Of a stretch of DNA of 21,418 nt, positions 3,365 to 9,650 are shown piece by piece. Below the pieces are notes generated by a model. That model did not search any database. It was given only the letters and a program-made list of their open reading frames with translations, and was not told the DNA's origin. Source of the stretch: a virus. The DNA lies in the IMG/VR virus record IMGVR_UViG_3300027714_000154, positions 1-21,418 of that record; one strand, given 5' to 3'. The position numbers and the translations under genes were made by a program. Within the stretch, counting starts at the first letter, position 1, and the number at the start of each line of letters is the position of its first letter.

Positions 3365-4150
3365 TTATATTTTTTCACCATCTATTAGACTAAAGGTAAT
3401 TCTATTAGTTCCATTAGAATATTCTATTTCGTCCCAAGTACTTCCGACCATTACATAGTCTTTAGGAACAGTATTAAATTTTTTTCTAAAATATTGATCT
3501 GGTGTTTGTACAAAAGGTTTTGCAGTTAGTTTATCTTCATCTAGATATCTTTCACCATTTAGCCAAGTAATAAAATGTGGAATATAATTAAAGTCTTTAG
3601 TATTATCACAAAGTTCATTATATTTTTCAATAAGATCGCTTCTTTTAACTTTATTTCTTATCTTTAAATATTTATCTTGAGCTTTCTTTTTAGAGCCTTT
3701 TTTAGCCCTTAATTGATTCCATAAATCATTAAATTCGCTTATATATTCTTTACCTTTATTTGTTAATTTATTATGTTTCATATCACTTGATGTATCATTT
3801 GGCATATCTTGATAGTCGTCATAATGAGTTATAGTAATAATATTTGGTGTATCAGCAGGTGTATTACTTGGTGTATTTGTTGTAATTGTGTAATTCTCTT
3901 TTAATCTATCTAAAAATCTTTGTACTTTTGATCTATTCCAATTAAAGGCTTTTGCCATATAACCAATAGAACAACATAATTGTCCTCTTTTTAAAACTAT
4001 TTCTTGATTTTGTATTCTATATCTTCGATCTGCAAAACTTGCTTCTAATAATATCCAAACAAATGCACCGATCTCGCAAAATGATCTGTCTTTTTTTTGT
4101 AATGCAGGGTGAGATAAAAGCCCTCTACCTATTTTGATGTAACCTCTCAT
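3365..4150 (-). CDS. Phage replication protein with N-terminal winged helix
   Basis: The 261-aa protein opens MRGYIKIGRGLLSHPALQ, the typical start of phage replication-initiator-like proteins. A winged-helix segment follows (IVLKRGQLCCSIGYMAKAFN then WNRSKVQRFLDRLKENY, about residues 51-88). After a Thr/Asn/Pro-rich linker (TNTPSNTPADTPN), a second domain begins near residue 135 (SEFNDLWNQLRAKKGSKKKA), with the IPHFITWLNGERY motif near 190-203 that in this family follows the FNDLW repeat-like helix. These features match DnaD/O-like initiators that recognise the origin and recruit a helicase. ATG 4150 is preferred. A GTG at 4156 in the same frame is possible, and a purine-rich AAGGAAAGG lies upstream of both. 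It overlaps the HNH-like gene by 26 bases. No helicase is visible in the window. Confidence 0.72.
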   Translation of the reverse strand: MRGYIKIGRGLLSHPALQKKDRSFCEIGAFVWILLEASFADRRYRIQNQEIVLKRGQLCCSIGYMAKAFNWNRSKVQRFLDRLKENYTITTNTPSNTPADTPNIITITHYDDYQDMPNDTSSDMKHNKLTNKGKEYISEFNDLWNQLRAKKGSKKKAQDKYLKIRNKVKRSDLIEKYNELCDNTKDFNYIPHFITWLNGERYLDEDKLTAKPFVQTPDQYFRKKFNTVPKDYVMVGSTWDEIEYSNGTNRITFSLIDGEKI

Positions 4151-4475
4151 AAACACTTTTCCTTTCCTTTAAGTATTCTATATGTTCCTTTGTAATTTTC
4201 TTACAAGGACTGTTAATTGCATAAAATATAGCAAATTCATAGGGATTGATATTAAATTTTTTATAAAATGTTAATTCACCAATATCTGTTTGCATTTTGT
4301 GATAATAATAATTAAAAGGTAAAACGCAATAATCACTTGGTTTTAAACCTGTACCACCATCACTTAGTATTCTTATATGACAAGCCTGTGATTCATACTG
4401 TTGACTTATAAGACAAGCCTTTTTTCTTATATAATTAAGATGTTTAATAGATCTATACATTTTTAAGTAGGGCAT
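4125..4475 (-). CDS. HNH-like (Ref/DUF968-type) nuclease-fold protein, possibly degenerate
   Basis: Residues 21-70 follow the pattern of DUF968/P1 Ref-type HNH proteins: CLISQQYESQACHIRI (the histidine of a CHIR motif at 33), GGTGLKPSDY (40-49), VLPFNYYYHKMQ (51-62) and GELTFYKK. In canonical members the VPL motif is followed by Cys and then an HH pair. Here those positions read FNYYYH, so one zinc ligand and the first of the paired histidines appear to be lost. The protein may therefore be catalytically weak or depend on an altered metal site. It is the first gene of the leftward block. The start could be ATG 4475, which lies inside a long dyad, or ATG 4460. Neither has a good ribosome binding site. 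A recombination role alongside the exonuclease is inference. Confidence 0.6.
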   Translation of the reverse strand: MPYLKMYRSIKHLNYIRKKACLISQQYESQACHIRILSDGGTGLKPSDYCVLPFNYYYHKMQTDIGELTFYKKFNINPYEFAIFYAINSPCKKITKEHIEYLKERKSVYERLHQNR

Positions 4476-4517
4476 AGCAGAAAGGACTTAACTTGGAGGA
4501 AAAGAAACTATGCCCTA
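4468..4517. repeat. 10-bp perfect inverted repeat in the divergent control region
   Basis: TAGGGCATAG (4468-4477) and CTATGCCCTA (4508-4517) are perfectly complementary with a 30-base spacer. In the leftward RNA, predicted to start near 4517, the arms would pair, would include the AUG at 4475, and would expose a pyrimidine-rich loop containing CCUCCAAGUU. On the plus strand the spacer holds a perfect ribosome-binding-site-like AACTTGGAGG (4490-4499) that is followed only by ATG CCC TAA (4510-4518). It could be a DNA operator, an RNA leader hairpin, or both. Confidence 0.55.
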
Positions 4518-4523
4518 AAAAAC

Positions 4524-4552
4524 ACTTTAAATTAGCCAAAAAATAATGTCAA
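4524..4552 (-). promoter_or_regulatory. Predicted leftward promoter of the divergent region
   Basis: On the minus strand, TTGACA (4552-4547) is a perfect -35 hexamer and TAAAGT (4529-4524) a 4/6 -10 hexamer, separated by 17 bases. Transcription would begin near 4517, at the outer base of the dyad 4468-4517, and would run into the HNH-like and replication genes. Confidence 0.55.
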
Positions 4553-4588: not shown

Positions 4589-4618
4589 ATATCATATTAA
4601 CAAATCTTGGAGGATTAA

Positions 4619-4951
4619 ATGACAACATTAACTAAACTAGAAAAAAACTTAATAGAAGAAGCTATCAAAGGTACTGATGGATCTAACTCTTTTTTATTTT
4701 GTACTGCTTTACAAATTGGAAATAAATTAGGTTGGACTGCTAACCAAACTAAAGGTGTATATGGATCATTAGAAAAGAAAAATATAATTTCAATGACTGA
4801 TTGTATGCTTGAGGGTGGTATCGGTCAATCTGATGACAGAATAGCATATTGGTCTATGAATGTTCAAAGTGATGATGGAGAAAAATTTGAACCTTACAAA
4901 GACACAATAGAAAAAATGGAAAAATATCTAGCAGAAAGGGAGGTGGCGTAA
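4619..4951 (+). CDS. Small winged-helix-like protein, first gene of the rightward operon
   Basis: The 110-aa protein has an N-terminal helical region (LTKLEKNLIEEAIKGT), a helix-turn-helix-like segment around residues 27-57 (ALQIGNKLGWTANQTKGVYG then SLEKKNIISM) and an acidic C-terminus. The pattern is that of a small winged helix in which SLEKKNII is the recognition helix plus wing. CTTGGAGG lies 5 bases before the ATG. Position directly after the divergent promoter region suggests an early regulator, possibly of that region, which is inference. The gene ends with the codons for EREVA, and the ribosome-binding-site-like AGGGAGG lies within them. The next gene is separated by a small hairpin. 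Confidence 0.68.
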   Translation: MTTLTKLEKNLIEEAIKGTDGSNSFLFCTALQIGNKLGWTANQTKGVYGSLEKKNIISMTDCMLEGGIGQSDDRIAYWSMNVQSDDGEKFEPYKDTIEKMEKYLAEREVA

Positions 4952-4958
4952 GCCACCT
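4941..4958 (+). other. Intergenic RNA hairpin with GNRA-type tetraloop
   Basis: AGGTGGC (4941-4947) pairs perfectly with GCCACCT (4952-4958) across the tetraloop GTAA, which contains most of the stop codon of the upstream gene. No U-tract follows, so it is not a terminator. It lies just ahead of the AAAGGA ribosome binding site of the ArdC-like gene and may stabilise a processed mRNA end or affect coupling between the two genes. Confidence 0.45.
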
Positions 4959-4972
4959 TGAAAGGATTAATT

Positions 4973-5887
4973 ATGTCAAAATACGATTTAGAAAAAACTT
5001 CTGCAATAGCAAATAAAGTTATTGCACTAATGCAAAATAATAACGAGGAATGGTTTAAACCTTTTACTGGTGATTCAAAATATGGATTAGGTGTATTTCC
5101 TAGAAATATAAAAGGCAATACTTATAGCGGTATGAATTTATTTATACTACTTCTTGAAAACTACCAATATAAACAAAATACTTGGATCACTTACAAAAAG
5201 ACTAAAGAACTAGGTGGTCAAATTATTAAAGGTCAAAAAGGTACACAGATTAAATTCTGTGGCAACATTTCTAAAAAAGATAGTAATGGTGCTGACGAAG
5301 ATTACTTTGTAAATAAATGGTACACTGTTTTTAATTTAGATCAAACTAACTTAGAAGAAATTAAGCCTGAACTATTTCAAAACAATGAAAATGAAATGCC
5401 TTTAGATTTAATTCAAAGAGATCAAGCTGTTGATTTATTTATTAAAAATACAGACGCTCACATAGTTCATAATAAAACAGGAAAATGTTTTTATGTACCT
5501 AGTAAAGATATGATTAATATGTCGCCTTTAGATACTTGGCAATCACAGGCAGATATATCTAAGGAAACTTTTTATTATTCAACTTTATTACACGAGCTAA
5601 CTCATTGGACAGGTCATAAAGATAGACTTGCTAGAGATATTAATAATGGTTTTGGTACTAGTGCTTATGCGTTTGAAGAATTAGTCGCAGAGTTAGGGTC
5701 AGCAATACTTTGTGGTATGTTAGGTGTTTCTAAACAGCCTATGGCTAATCACGCACAATATCTCAATAATTGGATAACAGGTTTAAAAGAGCAACCACAC
5801 TTACTTTTAAAAGCCTGTACTCAATCACAAAGAGCATATTCATTTTTAAAAGATTTACAATCAAATGAAAAAAGGGAGGTAGCGTAA
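4973..5887 (+). CDS. ArdC-like antirestriction protein (ssDNA-binding domain plus zincin domain)
   Basis: This 304-aa protein has an N-terminal ArdC-type ssDNA-binding domain at residues ~1-120, visible as the helix after MSKYDLEKTSAIANKVIALM, then GVFPRNIKGNTYSGMN, WITYKKTKELGGQIIKGQKG and WYTVFNLDQT. The C-terminal metallopeptidase-like domain carries HELTHWTGH (207-215) and YAFEELVAELGSAILC (232-247), which supplies the third ligand. ArdC proteins of plasmids and phages protect incoming DNA from restriction. I start at ATG 4973 (AAAGGA upstream) and not at TTG 4958. A leading-region-like position second in the early operon suits an anti-defence role during genome entry. The end of the gene encodes KREVA and its stop overlaps the next ATG (TAATG). 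Confidence 0.85.
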   Translation: MSKYDLEKTSAIANKVIALMQNNNEEWFKPFTGDSKYGLGVFPRNIKGNTYSGMNLFILLLENYQYKQNTWITYKKTKELGGQIIKGQKGTQIKFCGNISKKDSNGADEDYFVNKWYTVFNLDQTNLEEIKPELFQNNENEMPLDLIQRDQAVDLFIKNTDAHIVHNKTGKCFYVPSKDMINMSPLDTWQSQADISKETFYYSTLLHELTHWTGHKDRLARDINNGFGTSAYAFEELVAELGSAILCGMLGVSKQPMANHAQYLNNWITGLKEQPHLLLKACTQSQRAYSFLKDLQSNEKREVA

Positions 5888-6828: not shown

Positions 6829-6904
6829 CTACTTTACACCTTGGGGGAAAAAGGTAATATTAATAATAATTGGAGGAATAATATGTCTATACTTACTGAT
6901 GTAA
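6821..6904 (+). CDS. Possible overlapping membrane micro-protein (27 aa)
   Basis: A second frame beginning at ATG 6821 inside the zinc-ribbon gene encodes MNNYFTPWGKK followed by a 16-residue hydrophobic stretch ending CLYLLM. That is a single membrane-spanning helix with a positive N-side flank. AGGTGA lies about 5 bases before the ATG. It overlaps the zinc-ribbon gene by 8 bases and the exonuclease gene by 22 bases. The alternative is a chance frame, because ATA/ATT-rich DNA gives Ile-rich peptides easily. Confidence 0.38.
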   Translation: MNNYFTPWGKKVILIIIGGIICLYLLM

Positions 6905-7671: not shown

Positions 7672-8230
7672 TTGTGAAATTACTAAAGTCTTTGACGCTA
7701 ACGAAAAAGGTATAGGCTTTGCCCTTAAACCTGATGTAGCTAGTGAAGAAATAAAAAACTTAACTAAATGGAATCCTAAGTTTTCAAATATAACTACTAC
7801 TTGGTGGCTTAATCAAAAACCACAACCGAAGTGGTTAATTGAGGGTACTAAAATTAAATTTAGTTGGTATGAAAAGAATGGTTATTTAAATATAGATCAA
7901 GCTAGTGTTGAGGTCGTTCATAACGAGGGTATTGAACTTGAAGATATTGAAGATGATCTAGACGATAGCTTTGATACCGATCTACTTGAAGCAGAAGCAT
8001 TAAAAGATTTAGAACAAAATGATAAATCTAATGTTACTAAACTTAAACCTAAAGCAGTAAATAATAATATTAATTCTAAAAAATTATCAAAGATACAAGA
8101 ATTAACTGATAATTATGGTGATGTATTTAAGATAGTTAATGCACACCCTAACTTAGTGTCGTTACCCTTAGAAGAAAAAACTAAGATAACAACTCATATA
8201 AATATAACTTTATCGCAACAAGGTTATTAA
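7658..8230 (+). CDS. Putative OB-fold ssDNA-binding protein with acidic linker
   Basis: Residues 1-95 are beta-rich and start MQTINCEITKVFDANEKGIG. They include TTTWWLNQKPQPKW and EGTKIKFSWYEKNGYLNIDQ, an arrangement compatible with an OB fold. Residues ~95-130 form an acidic segment (LEDIEDDLDDSFDTDLLEAE), and a basic/helical C-terminus follows. Phage SSBs often pair an OB domain with an acidic region. It overlaps the exonuclease gene, has a GGAG site in that gene's 3' end, and has no catalytic motif, which supports an SSB role. I do not recognise it by family, so the function is inferred. A 9-bp AT-rich dyad lies just after its stop. Confidence 0.6.
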   Translation: MQTINCEITKVFDANEKGIGFALKPDVASEEIKNLTKWNPKFSNITTTWWLNQKPQPKWLIEGTKIKFSWYEKNGYLNIDQASVEVVHNEGIELEDIEDDLDDSFDTDLLEAEALKDLEQNDKSNVTKLKPKAVNNNINSKKLSKIQELTDNYGDVFKIVNAHPNLVSLPLEEKTKITTHINITLSQQGY

Positions 8231-8235
8231 CATAT

Positions 8236-8261
8236 TTAATGTAATCTCATTTTTACATTAA
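8236..8261 (+). other. AT-rich 9-bp stem-loop after the SSB-like gene
   Basis: TTAATGTAA (8236-8244) and TTACATTAA (8253-8261) are a perfect inverted repeat around an 8-base loop. It begins 5 bases after the stop of the SSB-like gene and immediately precedes a stronger G/C-rich stem. The bases after it (TAGAGTGG) are not a U-tract, so it is not a typical intrinsic terminator. It might be a processing or stability element. Confidence 0.45.
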
Positions 8262-8263
8262 TA

Positions 8264-8313
8264 GAGTGGCAGGTGTTTTAGAACCTCCAAGTTTCCCCCC
8301 ACACTTGCTACTC
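8264..8313 (+). other. Structured RNA leader: 13-bp stem-loop with CCTCCAAGTT in the loop
   Basis: GAGTGGCAGGTGT (8264-8276) pairs along its full length with ACACTTGCTACTC (8301-8313). There are 13 pairs, two of them G-U (8268/8309 and 8272/8305), with a 24-base loop (8277-8300) that contains CCTCCAAGTT (8284-8293) and ends in a run of six C. It is far richer in G/C than its surroundings. It lies 5 bases before the AAGGAG ribosome binding site of the gene at 8331, so it is either a 5'-leader control element or a small RNA. The compensating G-U pairs suggest selection on RNA. No riboswitch family is recognised. Confidence 0.6.
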
Positions 8314-8330
8314 GCAATAAGGAGATTTAT

Positions 8331-8660
8331 ATGGACGAATTAACAATTTTAAAAAGTAAGTCTTATGATATTTGCATTAACGCAAGGCTATCAAAGACAG
8401 GTGTTGAATCTTTATTAAGGCAACGAGAAAGATTAAAGAGTCTACTATTTGTAGAGTATAGAAAAAAATGCTCGTCAGATAAAATGGCTGAACATTTATC
8501 AAAGGCTGATTATCGTTTACAAGATTTAGATGAAAAAATTAATACAGCTGATAAAGAGTATGCAAATAATTGGGGTCGTAAAGAGGCTCATATGTTAGAA
8601 TGTGAAATTACTAGATCAGAAATAGCAACGAAAAGGGAGGAACTAAAAAATGGTATCTAA
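8331..8660 (+). CDS. Coiled-coil hypothetical protein (109 aa)
   Basis: The protein is almost entirely helical and charged, with heptad-like runs in SLLRQRERLKSLLFVEYRKK and ADYRLQDLDEKINTADKEYA, and no catalytic motif. AAGGAG lies 6 bases before the ATG, and the structured leader 8264-8313 stands immediately upstream, so translation may be regulated. It ends by overlapping the next gene by 11 bases, with that gene's GGGAGG site inside it. I do not recognise a family. It could be an adaptor or a DNA- or ssDNA-associated helical protein. Confidence 0.65.
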   Translation: MDELTILKSKSYDICINARLSKTGVESLLRQRERLKSLLFVEYRKKCSSDKMAEHLSKADYRLQDLDEKINTADKEYANNWGRKEAHMLECEITRSEIATKREELKNGI

Positions 8661-9060
8661 AAAATTAATACTTGATAGACCTATTTGGAATGGTGGTGAA
8701 AGGTATGTAGGCATAGCAACTTACAGGCTACGAGATAACAGTTTAAGAGTTAGTTGTAGATATAGAAATAAAAGCGGCAATCCAATATGGCAAGGTGAAT
8801 TATTAGTAACAAAAAGATTTGCCGAGAAGTTCAGCACTAAAGAATATAAAACTAAAGGTGGTCAACCTTTTAAGGTGTATTTAATACCCCTAGACGATTT
8901 AATAGAATTTAACGATATGTTGAATGATAAGCTAAAAGCTCATCAATCTGTGACTAGCAGTACATATACAAAGGAAGAAATTAATAATTTACTTCTTAAA
9001 GACGCAAATATAAGAAAAATAGTTGAAATGTATCCCAACTGTCAAATAGATCCTGCTTAA
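8650..9060 (+). CDS. Hypothetical protein (136 aa)
   Basis: It begins MVSKKLILDRPIWNGGERYV. The N-terminal half is beta-rich (VGIATYRLRDNSLRVSCRYR, then GNPIWQGELLVTKRFAEK), and the C-terminal half carries an acidic helix (LIPLDDLIEFNDML) and NNLLLKDANIRKIVEMYPN. GGGAGG is the ribosome binding site, inside the end of the upstream gene, so translation is coupled. The family is not recognised. The position after the recombination genes is the only functional hint. Confidence 0.65.
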   Translation: MVSKKLILDRPIWNGGERYVGIATYRLRDNSLRVSCRYRNKSGNPIWQGELLVTKRFAEKFSTKEYKTKGGQPFKVYLIPLDDLIEFNDMLNDKLKAHQSVTSSTYTKEEINNLLLKDANIRKIVEMYPNCQIDPA

Positions 9061-9296
9061 TATAGCTGAATAGCGTTTAAACGCCTATATCTCTTAAATT
9101 AAAGCAATTTCTTATTTATAGACTGCTAGTATTACTTAACCTTAAAATAGCTCTAAAACAGCTTAATTAACAGCATTAATGTTCTATTAATGTTCTTTAC
9201 TTTAAAATTATTTTGTAATTTATTTATTTTTTTTGTTTACAACTTTTTTTAAGCACTATAAATTTAAATCAACAACAACATTACTTGGAGGTAAAA
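9061..9296. other. AT-rich non-coding gap with palindrome, tandem 11-bp repeat and T-rich tracts
   Basis: This 236-base gap holds no credible gene. It contains the perfect 12-base palindrome GCGTTTAAACGC (9073-9084), which is flanked by ATA/TAT pairs separated by one bulged base. A direct repeat ATTAATGTTCT occurs twice in tandem (9175-9185, 9186-9196), and a long T-rich stretch runs from about 9217 to 9250. The end carries a candidate promoter, TTTACA 9236-9241 and TATAAA 9257-9262, with short 15-base spacing. It could be an origin-like or promoter region. There is no stem followed by a clear U-tract. Confidence 0.45.
9236..9262 (+). promoter_or_regulatory. Candidate rightward promoter before the gene at 9297
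   Basis: TTTACA (9236-9241) and TATAAA (9257-9262) are spaced by 15 bases, shorter than ideal. A shifted -35 reading (TTGTTT, 18-base spacing) matches consensus less well. The gap and the strong ribosome binding site that follows suggest a separate transcription unit for the last four rightward genes. Confidence 0.35.
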
Positions 9297-9650
9297 ATGA
9301 TTAATAAAAAAACAATATCAATAGAAGAATACATAACAAAAACTTACAGCAAAAATCAAGAAAATTGTAATGATGATTATGGTTGTGTTTTATGTGGTAA
9401 AAAAATAACAAAATCAGCTAAATATTTTGTTATTTGCTCAATGAATCAACATAATGTTTATACTAAAAAAGATGTACTAGAATTAGGTTATAGTTTTATA
9501 GAAAAAAACGATAGTGGTTTTATGCACTGTTATCCAATAGGAAACGATTGTTATAGGAAATATGTTAAAGGCAATGAAGTTTTAGAAAGTGTTGTATTTA
9601 AACAATTTGCTGTAAGTTTTTGTGGCGAATCATTTAGGGAGGAAAAATAA
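9297..9650 (+). CDS. Cysteine-rich, probably zinc-binding hypothetical protein (117 aa)
   Basis: The protein has CVLCGK (Cys30, Cys33), a later Cys47, Cys78 and PIGNDCYRKY (Cys85, 80-89). The opening CxxC and the PIGNDC motif form the layout of a small zinc-binding domain that I associate with phage and plasmid early genes. The exact family is not certain. The start is ATG 9297, with ACTTGGAGGT 5 bases upstream; the in-frame TTG at 9285 lies within that site. The stop overlaps the next gene (TAATG), so these genes are co-translated. No function can be given. Confidence 0.66.
   Translation: MINKKTISIEEYITKTYSKNQENCNDDYGCVLCGKKITKSAKYFVICSMNQHNVYTKKDVLELGYSFIEKNDSGFMHCYPIGNDCYRKYVKGNEVLESVVFKQFAVSFCGESFREEK

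Follow-up and report, generated by a model that had tools for sequence, protein, structure and literature searches.

Leader hairpins with loops complementary to ribosome-binding sites: candidate antisense RNAs in a group of uncultured marine phages

In a 21,418-nucleotide stretch of viral DNA (IMG/VR record IMGVR_UViG_3300027714_000154, positions 1 to 21,418; hereafter the window), two leader hairpins, A and B, both hold CCUCCAAG in their loops, a sequence exactly complementary to the ribosome-binding sites that precede T1 and T2, two other genes of the same phage. We propose, at a probability of roughly 0.6, that these hairpins are leader-embedded antisense RNAs that would mask the ribosome-binding sites of particular phage genes. 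Across the related phages that we compared, the loop cores are exactly complementary to the T1 and T2 sites over 8 to 13 nt overall.

Hairpins A and B in related phages

The two hairpins and their immediate surroundings in the window are the following.

8236..8261, plus strand: AT-rich stem of 9 bp, just 5′ of hairpin A
8264..8313, plus strand: hairpin A, a 13-bp stem (8264-8276 with 8301-8313) and a 24-nt loop (8277-8300), identified from folding, covariation and homologues
8283..8292, plus strand: loop element of hairpin A, ACCUCCAAGU, complementary without mismatch over 10 nt to the ribosome-binding site of T2 and over 8 nt to that of T1
8295..8300, plus strand: second loop element of hairpin A, CCCCCC (CUCCCCC in relatives)
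8331..8660, plus strand: gene directly 3′ of hairpin A, encoding 109 aa, a predicted two-helix coiled coil with no family match
4468..4517, minus strand: hairpin B, an 11-bp stem (TAGGGCATAGT/GCTATGCCCTA) and a 28-nt loop (z = −4.6)
4492..4500, minus strand: loop element of hairpin B, UCCUCCAAG, the exact 9-nt complement of the T1 ribosome-binding site
4524..4552, minus strand: leftward early promoter, TTGACA-17-TAAAGT, kept in relatives; its predicted start, at about 4517, is the first base of hairpin B
4128..4460, minus strand: first leftward gene, with weak HNH/DUF968 similarity and starting directly after hairpin B with no Shine-Dalgarno sequence between them

The first-pass annotation of this DNA had described hairpin A as a 13-bp stem with two G-U pairs and a 24-nt loop with six C, preceded by a 9-bp AT-rich stem and ending 5 nt before the ribosome-binding site, and this description proved correct to the base. 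The arms, GAGTGGCAGGTGT (8264-8276) and ACACTTGCTACTC (8301-8313), form 13 unbroken pairs of which two are G-U, and AAGGAG starts 5 nt past the stem. Both stems are present in the minimum free energy structure of positions 8200-8345 (z = −3.25), and the z-scores of hairpin A by itself (−5.2) and of the AT-rich stem (−6.0) are lower; in each of the three cases, 0 of 200 shuffles folded as well. Equivalents of the AT-rich stem, with other sequence, occur in four class I relatives (the class is defined below) and are absent from the others.

Using homologues of the genes flanking hairpin A, taken from IMG/VR, we found that nearly all homologous junctions (5′ of the 8331 gene, or equivalent) bear a hairpin with a different stem and a C-rich loop. 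In a 19-sequence MAFFT alignment, both sides have changed in 10 of the 13 pairs, and the covariation score is 0.523 versus 0.200 when shuffled (0 of 500), with slid registers reaching at most 0.13. The covariation that the first-pass annotation had named as the check on its claim is thus present across homologous leaders, and it bears out the view that this is a structured RNA selected at the RNA level. The annotation had drawn that conclusion from the G-U pairs, which in one sequence are weak grounds; it is the covariation that carries the claim. Of 38 records searched with a covariance model, about 30 yielded hairpin A, and four cultured relatives gave at most one marginal match; the carriers, about 30 in number, are related contigs from uncultured marine phages.

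Two classes can be told apart. In class I (the window and contigs G002-G010), the loop of hairpin A has the core ACCUCCAA, followed in most members by CUCCCCC, and a Shine-Dalgarno sequence separates the stem from the AUG. The class II loop has a single box, CUCCC(CC); its stem stops about 8 nt 5′ of the start codon, with no Shine-Dalgarno sequence in between. Class II hairpin A (for example, L041:3941-3991 and L008:597-652) opens with ATG, and in some phages this ATG has a good ribosome-binding site, AAGGAGTTTATGAGAGG, in front of it; the short reading frames that begin there are not conserved, and the real gene start is the one 8 nt past the stem. In three contigs (G024, G025 and G028; loci L046, L047 and L050), other genes separate hairpin A from the 8331 homologue, and hairpin A therefore marks the junction rather than the 8331 gene.

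Hairpin B was first picked up by the covariance model and a loop scan, and in relatives it was located with the leftward gene as an anchor. It is found, at the predicted transcript start, in 20 of 20 contigs holding the leftward gene, and again in most of a later contig set, in which the few exceptions are either cut at the site or too distant. The covariance-model matches to hairpin B in G009 and G010 fell in wrong places, and the true hairpins were located via the leftward gene. The 11 distinct stems of hairpin B are all paired over 8 positions (covariation sum of 380 versus a shuffle maximum of 158), and the window's copy differs from its nearest hairpin B relatives almost solely next to the core that complements T1. 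Like hairpin A, it has a single-stem rather than a three-stem architecture. No terminator-like site (GC stem and U run) was found at either hairpin.

The tail proteins of the window are nearest to those of cultured SAR11 siphophages, such as HTVC112P (about 39% identity). We can only guess at a SAR11-like host, because no relative of the 8331 protein family was found in bacterial genomes and none of the three neighbouring early proteins was found in cultured phages. Elsewhere in the window, a strong match to the TET-associated glycosyltransferase family (PF20691, E = 1.7e−43) adjoins a ParB-like gene (810-1697 and 1684-2304), which hints at DNA base modification.

Complementarity between loops and ribosome-binding sites

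The sites complementary to the loops, and the genes that they precede, are the following.

4606..4614, plus strand: T1 ribosome-binding site, CTTGGAGGA, 9 nt complementary to hairpin B
4619..4951, plus strand: T1 gene, the first gene of the rightward early operon, encoding 110 aa with no confident family match
6870..6876, plus strand: TTGGAGG, the ribosome-binding site of a nuclease-like gene (start at 6883), matching hairpin B over 9 nt in the window and over 10-11 nt in G002-G004
9236-9264, plus strand: promoter-like site of T2 itself, TTTACA-17-TAAATT, just 5′ of T2
9283..9292, plus strand: T2 ribosome-binding site, ACTTGGAGGT, 10 nt complementary to hairpin A
9297..9650, plus strand: T2 gene, the first gene past the conserved pair 8331/8650, with no confident family match

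The T2 slot is occupied by a different gene in most relatives, and it sits 910-1003 nt 3′ of hairpin A in most contigs and farther away where a gene is inserted. In the window, T2 is preceded by an AT-rich intergenic stretch of about 240 nt (9060-9297). Because the promoter-like site in this stretch is conserved in G002-G004, T2 probably has a transcript of its own, which would open with a short CAACAACAACATT leader. The T1 slot varies as well: in G002-G004 and G009, it holds an ArdC-sized gene with a start resembling that of the ArdC-like gene. In the window, this anti-restriction gene of the ArdC type (4958-5887) is the second early gene, and between T1 and it, right past a GGGAGG site, lies a perfect inverted repeat, GGTGGC-GTAA-GCCACC (4935-4957), a motif also present in relatives (for example, in L225 near 6300, on the hairpin A strand).

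Across phages, the type of the T1 and T2 sites switches with the type of the resident loop, though the genes in the slots differ. Loop and site match over 9-13 nt in G002, G004 and G009, and class II phages carry UGCCCUUUCGU or UUCGCCCUUUC in the B loop and GAAAGGGCA, AAAGGGCGAA or AAAGGCGAAU at the T1 and T2 sites. Two gene families occur under both codes. Members of the MTT(L/I)TKLEK family are preceded by CTTGGAGGA at T1 of the window and by AAAGGGCGAA or GAAAGGCGAAT at T1 and T2 of G019, and members of the window's T2 family are preceded by ACTTGGAGGT in the window and by GAAAGGCGAAT in G022. In contigs found after the idea was formed, loop and site again match, over 8-10 nt. The site of the nuclease-like gene, with a loop match of 7-11 nt, is judged from its sequence to be a probable further target of the hairpin loops.

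Because C-rich loops pair with any purine-rich Shine-Dalgarno sequence, the Shine-Dalgarno core was held fixed in our tests. Among class I GGAGG sites (n = 58), 48 match the A loop over 5-8 nt, and the ten that match over 10-12 nt are all T1 or T2. Among class II AAAGG sites, which include sites of a DnaD-like gene that are also coding sequence, 24 of 56 match the B loop of their own phage over at least 8 nt. Against the same class II B loops, matches of at least 8 nt were found at 1 of 138 sites in cultured relatives without hairpins and at 2 of 76 in class I contigs (3 of 214 in total). Duplexes of T1 with its own loop have a mean of −15.3 kcal/mol versus −11.9 kcal/mol for swapped loops (a difference of 3.4; 0 of 20,000 permutations), in a set in which the T1 start of G020 was misassigned. 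Against pooled sites of similar Shine-Dalgarno strength, a pool that includes other likely targets, T1 has a median rank of 6%; since the phages are related and the counts not independent, none of these loop/site figures is an independent probability. Shuffled A loops reach the energy of the T2 match in 0-33% of trials per contig, so that single contigs are not decisive and the weight lies in recurrence at the same places. The T1 sites of L247 and L249 match little above controls, and small hairpins at the target sites were no more stable than shuffles.

For the class II A loop, we found no convincing target, the high-ranking sites sitting inside conserved coding sequence. Two candidates, TGGGAGGATAAACA and TTTGGGGAGTTATAAA, were discarded for lying within the coding end of a conserved small gene. 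In many class II phages, hairpin B is complementary to a GAAAGGGC site of the DnaD-like gene in the leftward operon, but this site doubles as coding sequence for the preceding gene and was not counted in favour of antisense control. In G018 (L224, about 3400-3527, hairpin A strand) and its class II equivalents, the final codons of a conserved small gene for a membrane protein (METLLYYFLLPAFFGG...) include the ribosome-binding site for the gene that follows, and this following gene is a different one in nearly every phage.

Among the matches listed in a scan of viral contigs for the loop motif, almost all of those outside this group lack a comparable stem, the exceptions being a few in other contexts, such as L075 and L055. 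The cultured pelagiphages HTVC111P and HTVC202P (L175:4008-4058 and L174:4012-4060) have a 12-13 bp hairpin flanked by a promoter-like stretch and the first rightward gene. The loop of this hairpin (CUCUCUCU/UUCUCUC) complements the GAGAGA ribosome-binding site of that first gene itself, and GAGAGAG also occurs about 50 nt upstream. This hairpin is possibly an analogous but self-targeting device.

Competing readings and known antisense RNAs

The main rival to antisense control is that the shared sequences are DNA operators, copies of one repressor site close to the promoters of the leftward transcript, T1 and T2, whose overlap with Shine-Dalgarno sequences and loops is incidental. The B loop and the T1 site are indeed direct repeats on one DNA strand that flank the leftward promoter, and T2 too has a promoter-like site just 5′ of it. 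In addition, G-U compensation between the loop and T1 has no strand bias (223 versus 219 in all), and the pairing of loop and T1 as RNA is therefore not separately proven. A repeated operator would nevertheless not explain why covarying RNA stems keep the copies of hairpins A and B within a loop, why the other copies always lie at the Shine-Dalgarno position, the purine/pyrimidine polarity, or the matches with an internal one-base bulge (G020 and G025). We consider this reading unlikely, if worth keeping in mind.

Less probable again is control in cis: the hairpin, or pairing by its loop, would act at the ribosome-binding site of the gene just 3′ of it, 8331, and serve there either as a switch of translation or as a structured spacer in front of the start codon. 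The first-pass annotation had seen hairpin A as a leader element before this gene, and its position upstream of 8331 homologues, with the stem 5 nt 5′ of AAGGAG in the window, stands. The pairing that such control would need is short and not general: the A loop could form 4 bp with its own Shine-Dalgarno sequence in the window and 3-4 bp in most class I phages, although ACCUC/GAGGU could pair over 5 bp in L030 and L033. Neither class II hairpin A, between stem and AUG, nor hairpin B is followed by a Shine-Dalgarno sequence, and the genes that intervene in G024, G025 and G028 separate the hairpin from its supposed target. It is with ribosome-binding sites of other genes that the loop matches best, and the same loop core recurs in a second hairpin; the idea that hairpin A controls the 8331 gene alone is not supported.

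A third reading, which we rate as improbable, takes the structures for protein-bound or stabilising 5′ hairpins, with a loop bound by a phage or host protein and a match that reflects a C-rich sequence complementing a purine-rich one. A strong conserved stem at a transcript's 5′ end would suit this role, and the CCCCC element of the A loop had no convincing target among the sites scanned for loop complementarity. The matches, however, reach well past the Shine-Dalgarno core and are specific to T1 and T2 of the same phage, and the loops read CCUCCAA rather than CCUCCUU, the anti-Shine-Dalgarno sequence of 16S rRNA. That the conserved ribosome-binding sequences are recombination linkers, homology tags by which cargo genes are exchanged between slots and which have no regulatory role, is very improbable: one gene family does occupy slot T1 of one phage and T2 of another, but linkers account for the likeness of the T1 and T2 sites and not for their complementarity to hairpin loops.

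The first-pass annotation knew of no named family for hairpin A, in agreement with Rfam, which gave no match at the gathering threshold in the window or ten related contigs and chance matches only at a relaxed threshold. No description of hairpins of the A or B type was found in the literature searched, the coverage of which was incomplete.

The sar RNA of phage P22 is encoded opposite its target region, unlike hairpins A and B, which are encoded apart from T2, the short loop core alone being common to them. As antisense control by a phage of translation initiation in one of its genes, sar (PMC12197685) has the kind of role proposed for hairpins A and B. The c4 RNA of phages P1 and P7 is a structured RNA encoded by the phage; its loops complement the region of a phage mRNA where ribosomes bind, and translation of that mRNA is blocked (PMC12197685, PMC5320573). 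The A and B loops resemble those of c4 (RF01695) in being complementary to ribosome-binding sites of the same phage. In contrast to c4, which is about 77 nt long with three stem-loops, is processed by RNase P and targets ant, A and B each consist of one hairpin with a long stem, lie in separate leaders and have several proposed targets. The c4 covariance model had no match in the window at E ≤ 10, and, given this and their different architecture, A and B are not c4 members. In RNAIII of Staphylococcus aureus (PMC2837412) and sX13 of Xanthomonas (PMC3771888), C-rich hairpin loops pair with the G-rich ribosome-binding sites of several mRNAs, and the C-rich loops of A and B likewise complement G-rich start-site motifs. 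RNAIII and sX13 are free-standing, multi-hairpin sRNAs of the host, whereas A and B sit in phage mRNA leaders and, unlike them, have loops that changed sequence together with their targets. By analogy, A and B may work as the loops of c4 or RNAIII do, while belonging to neither family.

A possible loop-tag code and its meaning

From stems, complementarity and co-switching, which are read from the sequence, we infer the pairing, the repression and the direction of control. We hypothesize that the stem keeps the pyrimidine-rich loop of 20-30 nt unpaired, and that the loop core, either on its own mRNA or as a processed 5′ fragment, would pair with the Shine-Dalgarno sequences of T1 and T2 and block 30S binding; that of the nuclease-like gene would probably be paired and blocked too. 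Through hairpin B, which forms the 5′ end of the leftward mRNA, leftward transcription would be coupled to repression of the rightward operon; hairpin A, located inside that operon, would provide negative feedback. The complementary tag belongs to the ribosome-binding site rather than to the gene, and any gene in the T1 or T2 slot would therefore come under the same control.

More tentatively, and with the odds against it, we conjecture that loop and tags constitute an exchangeable private pairing code. The loop and the tags in the two cargo slots would co-evolve, and incoming genes would be controlled by the leader hairpins. Neither of two phages with unlike codes would respond to the hairpins of the other, much as in heteroimmunity, and each of the divergent early operons would regulate the other by contact between RNAs.

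If antisense control is the right reading, these hairpins would be an uncatalogued family of regulatory RNAs in marine phages, and an instance in which the pairing of an antisense loop with its target can be read from natural covariation. The loop/site pairs would also offer a compact, swappable set for studying how short pairing between a loop and a Shine-Dalgarno sequence controls translation. For the phages themselves, the arrangement suggests how mosaic genomes may keep newly gained cargo genes under control, namely by a tag in the ribosome-binding site.
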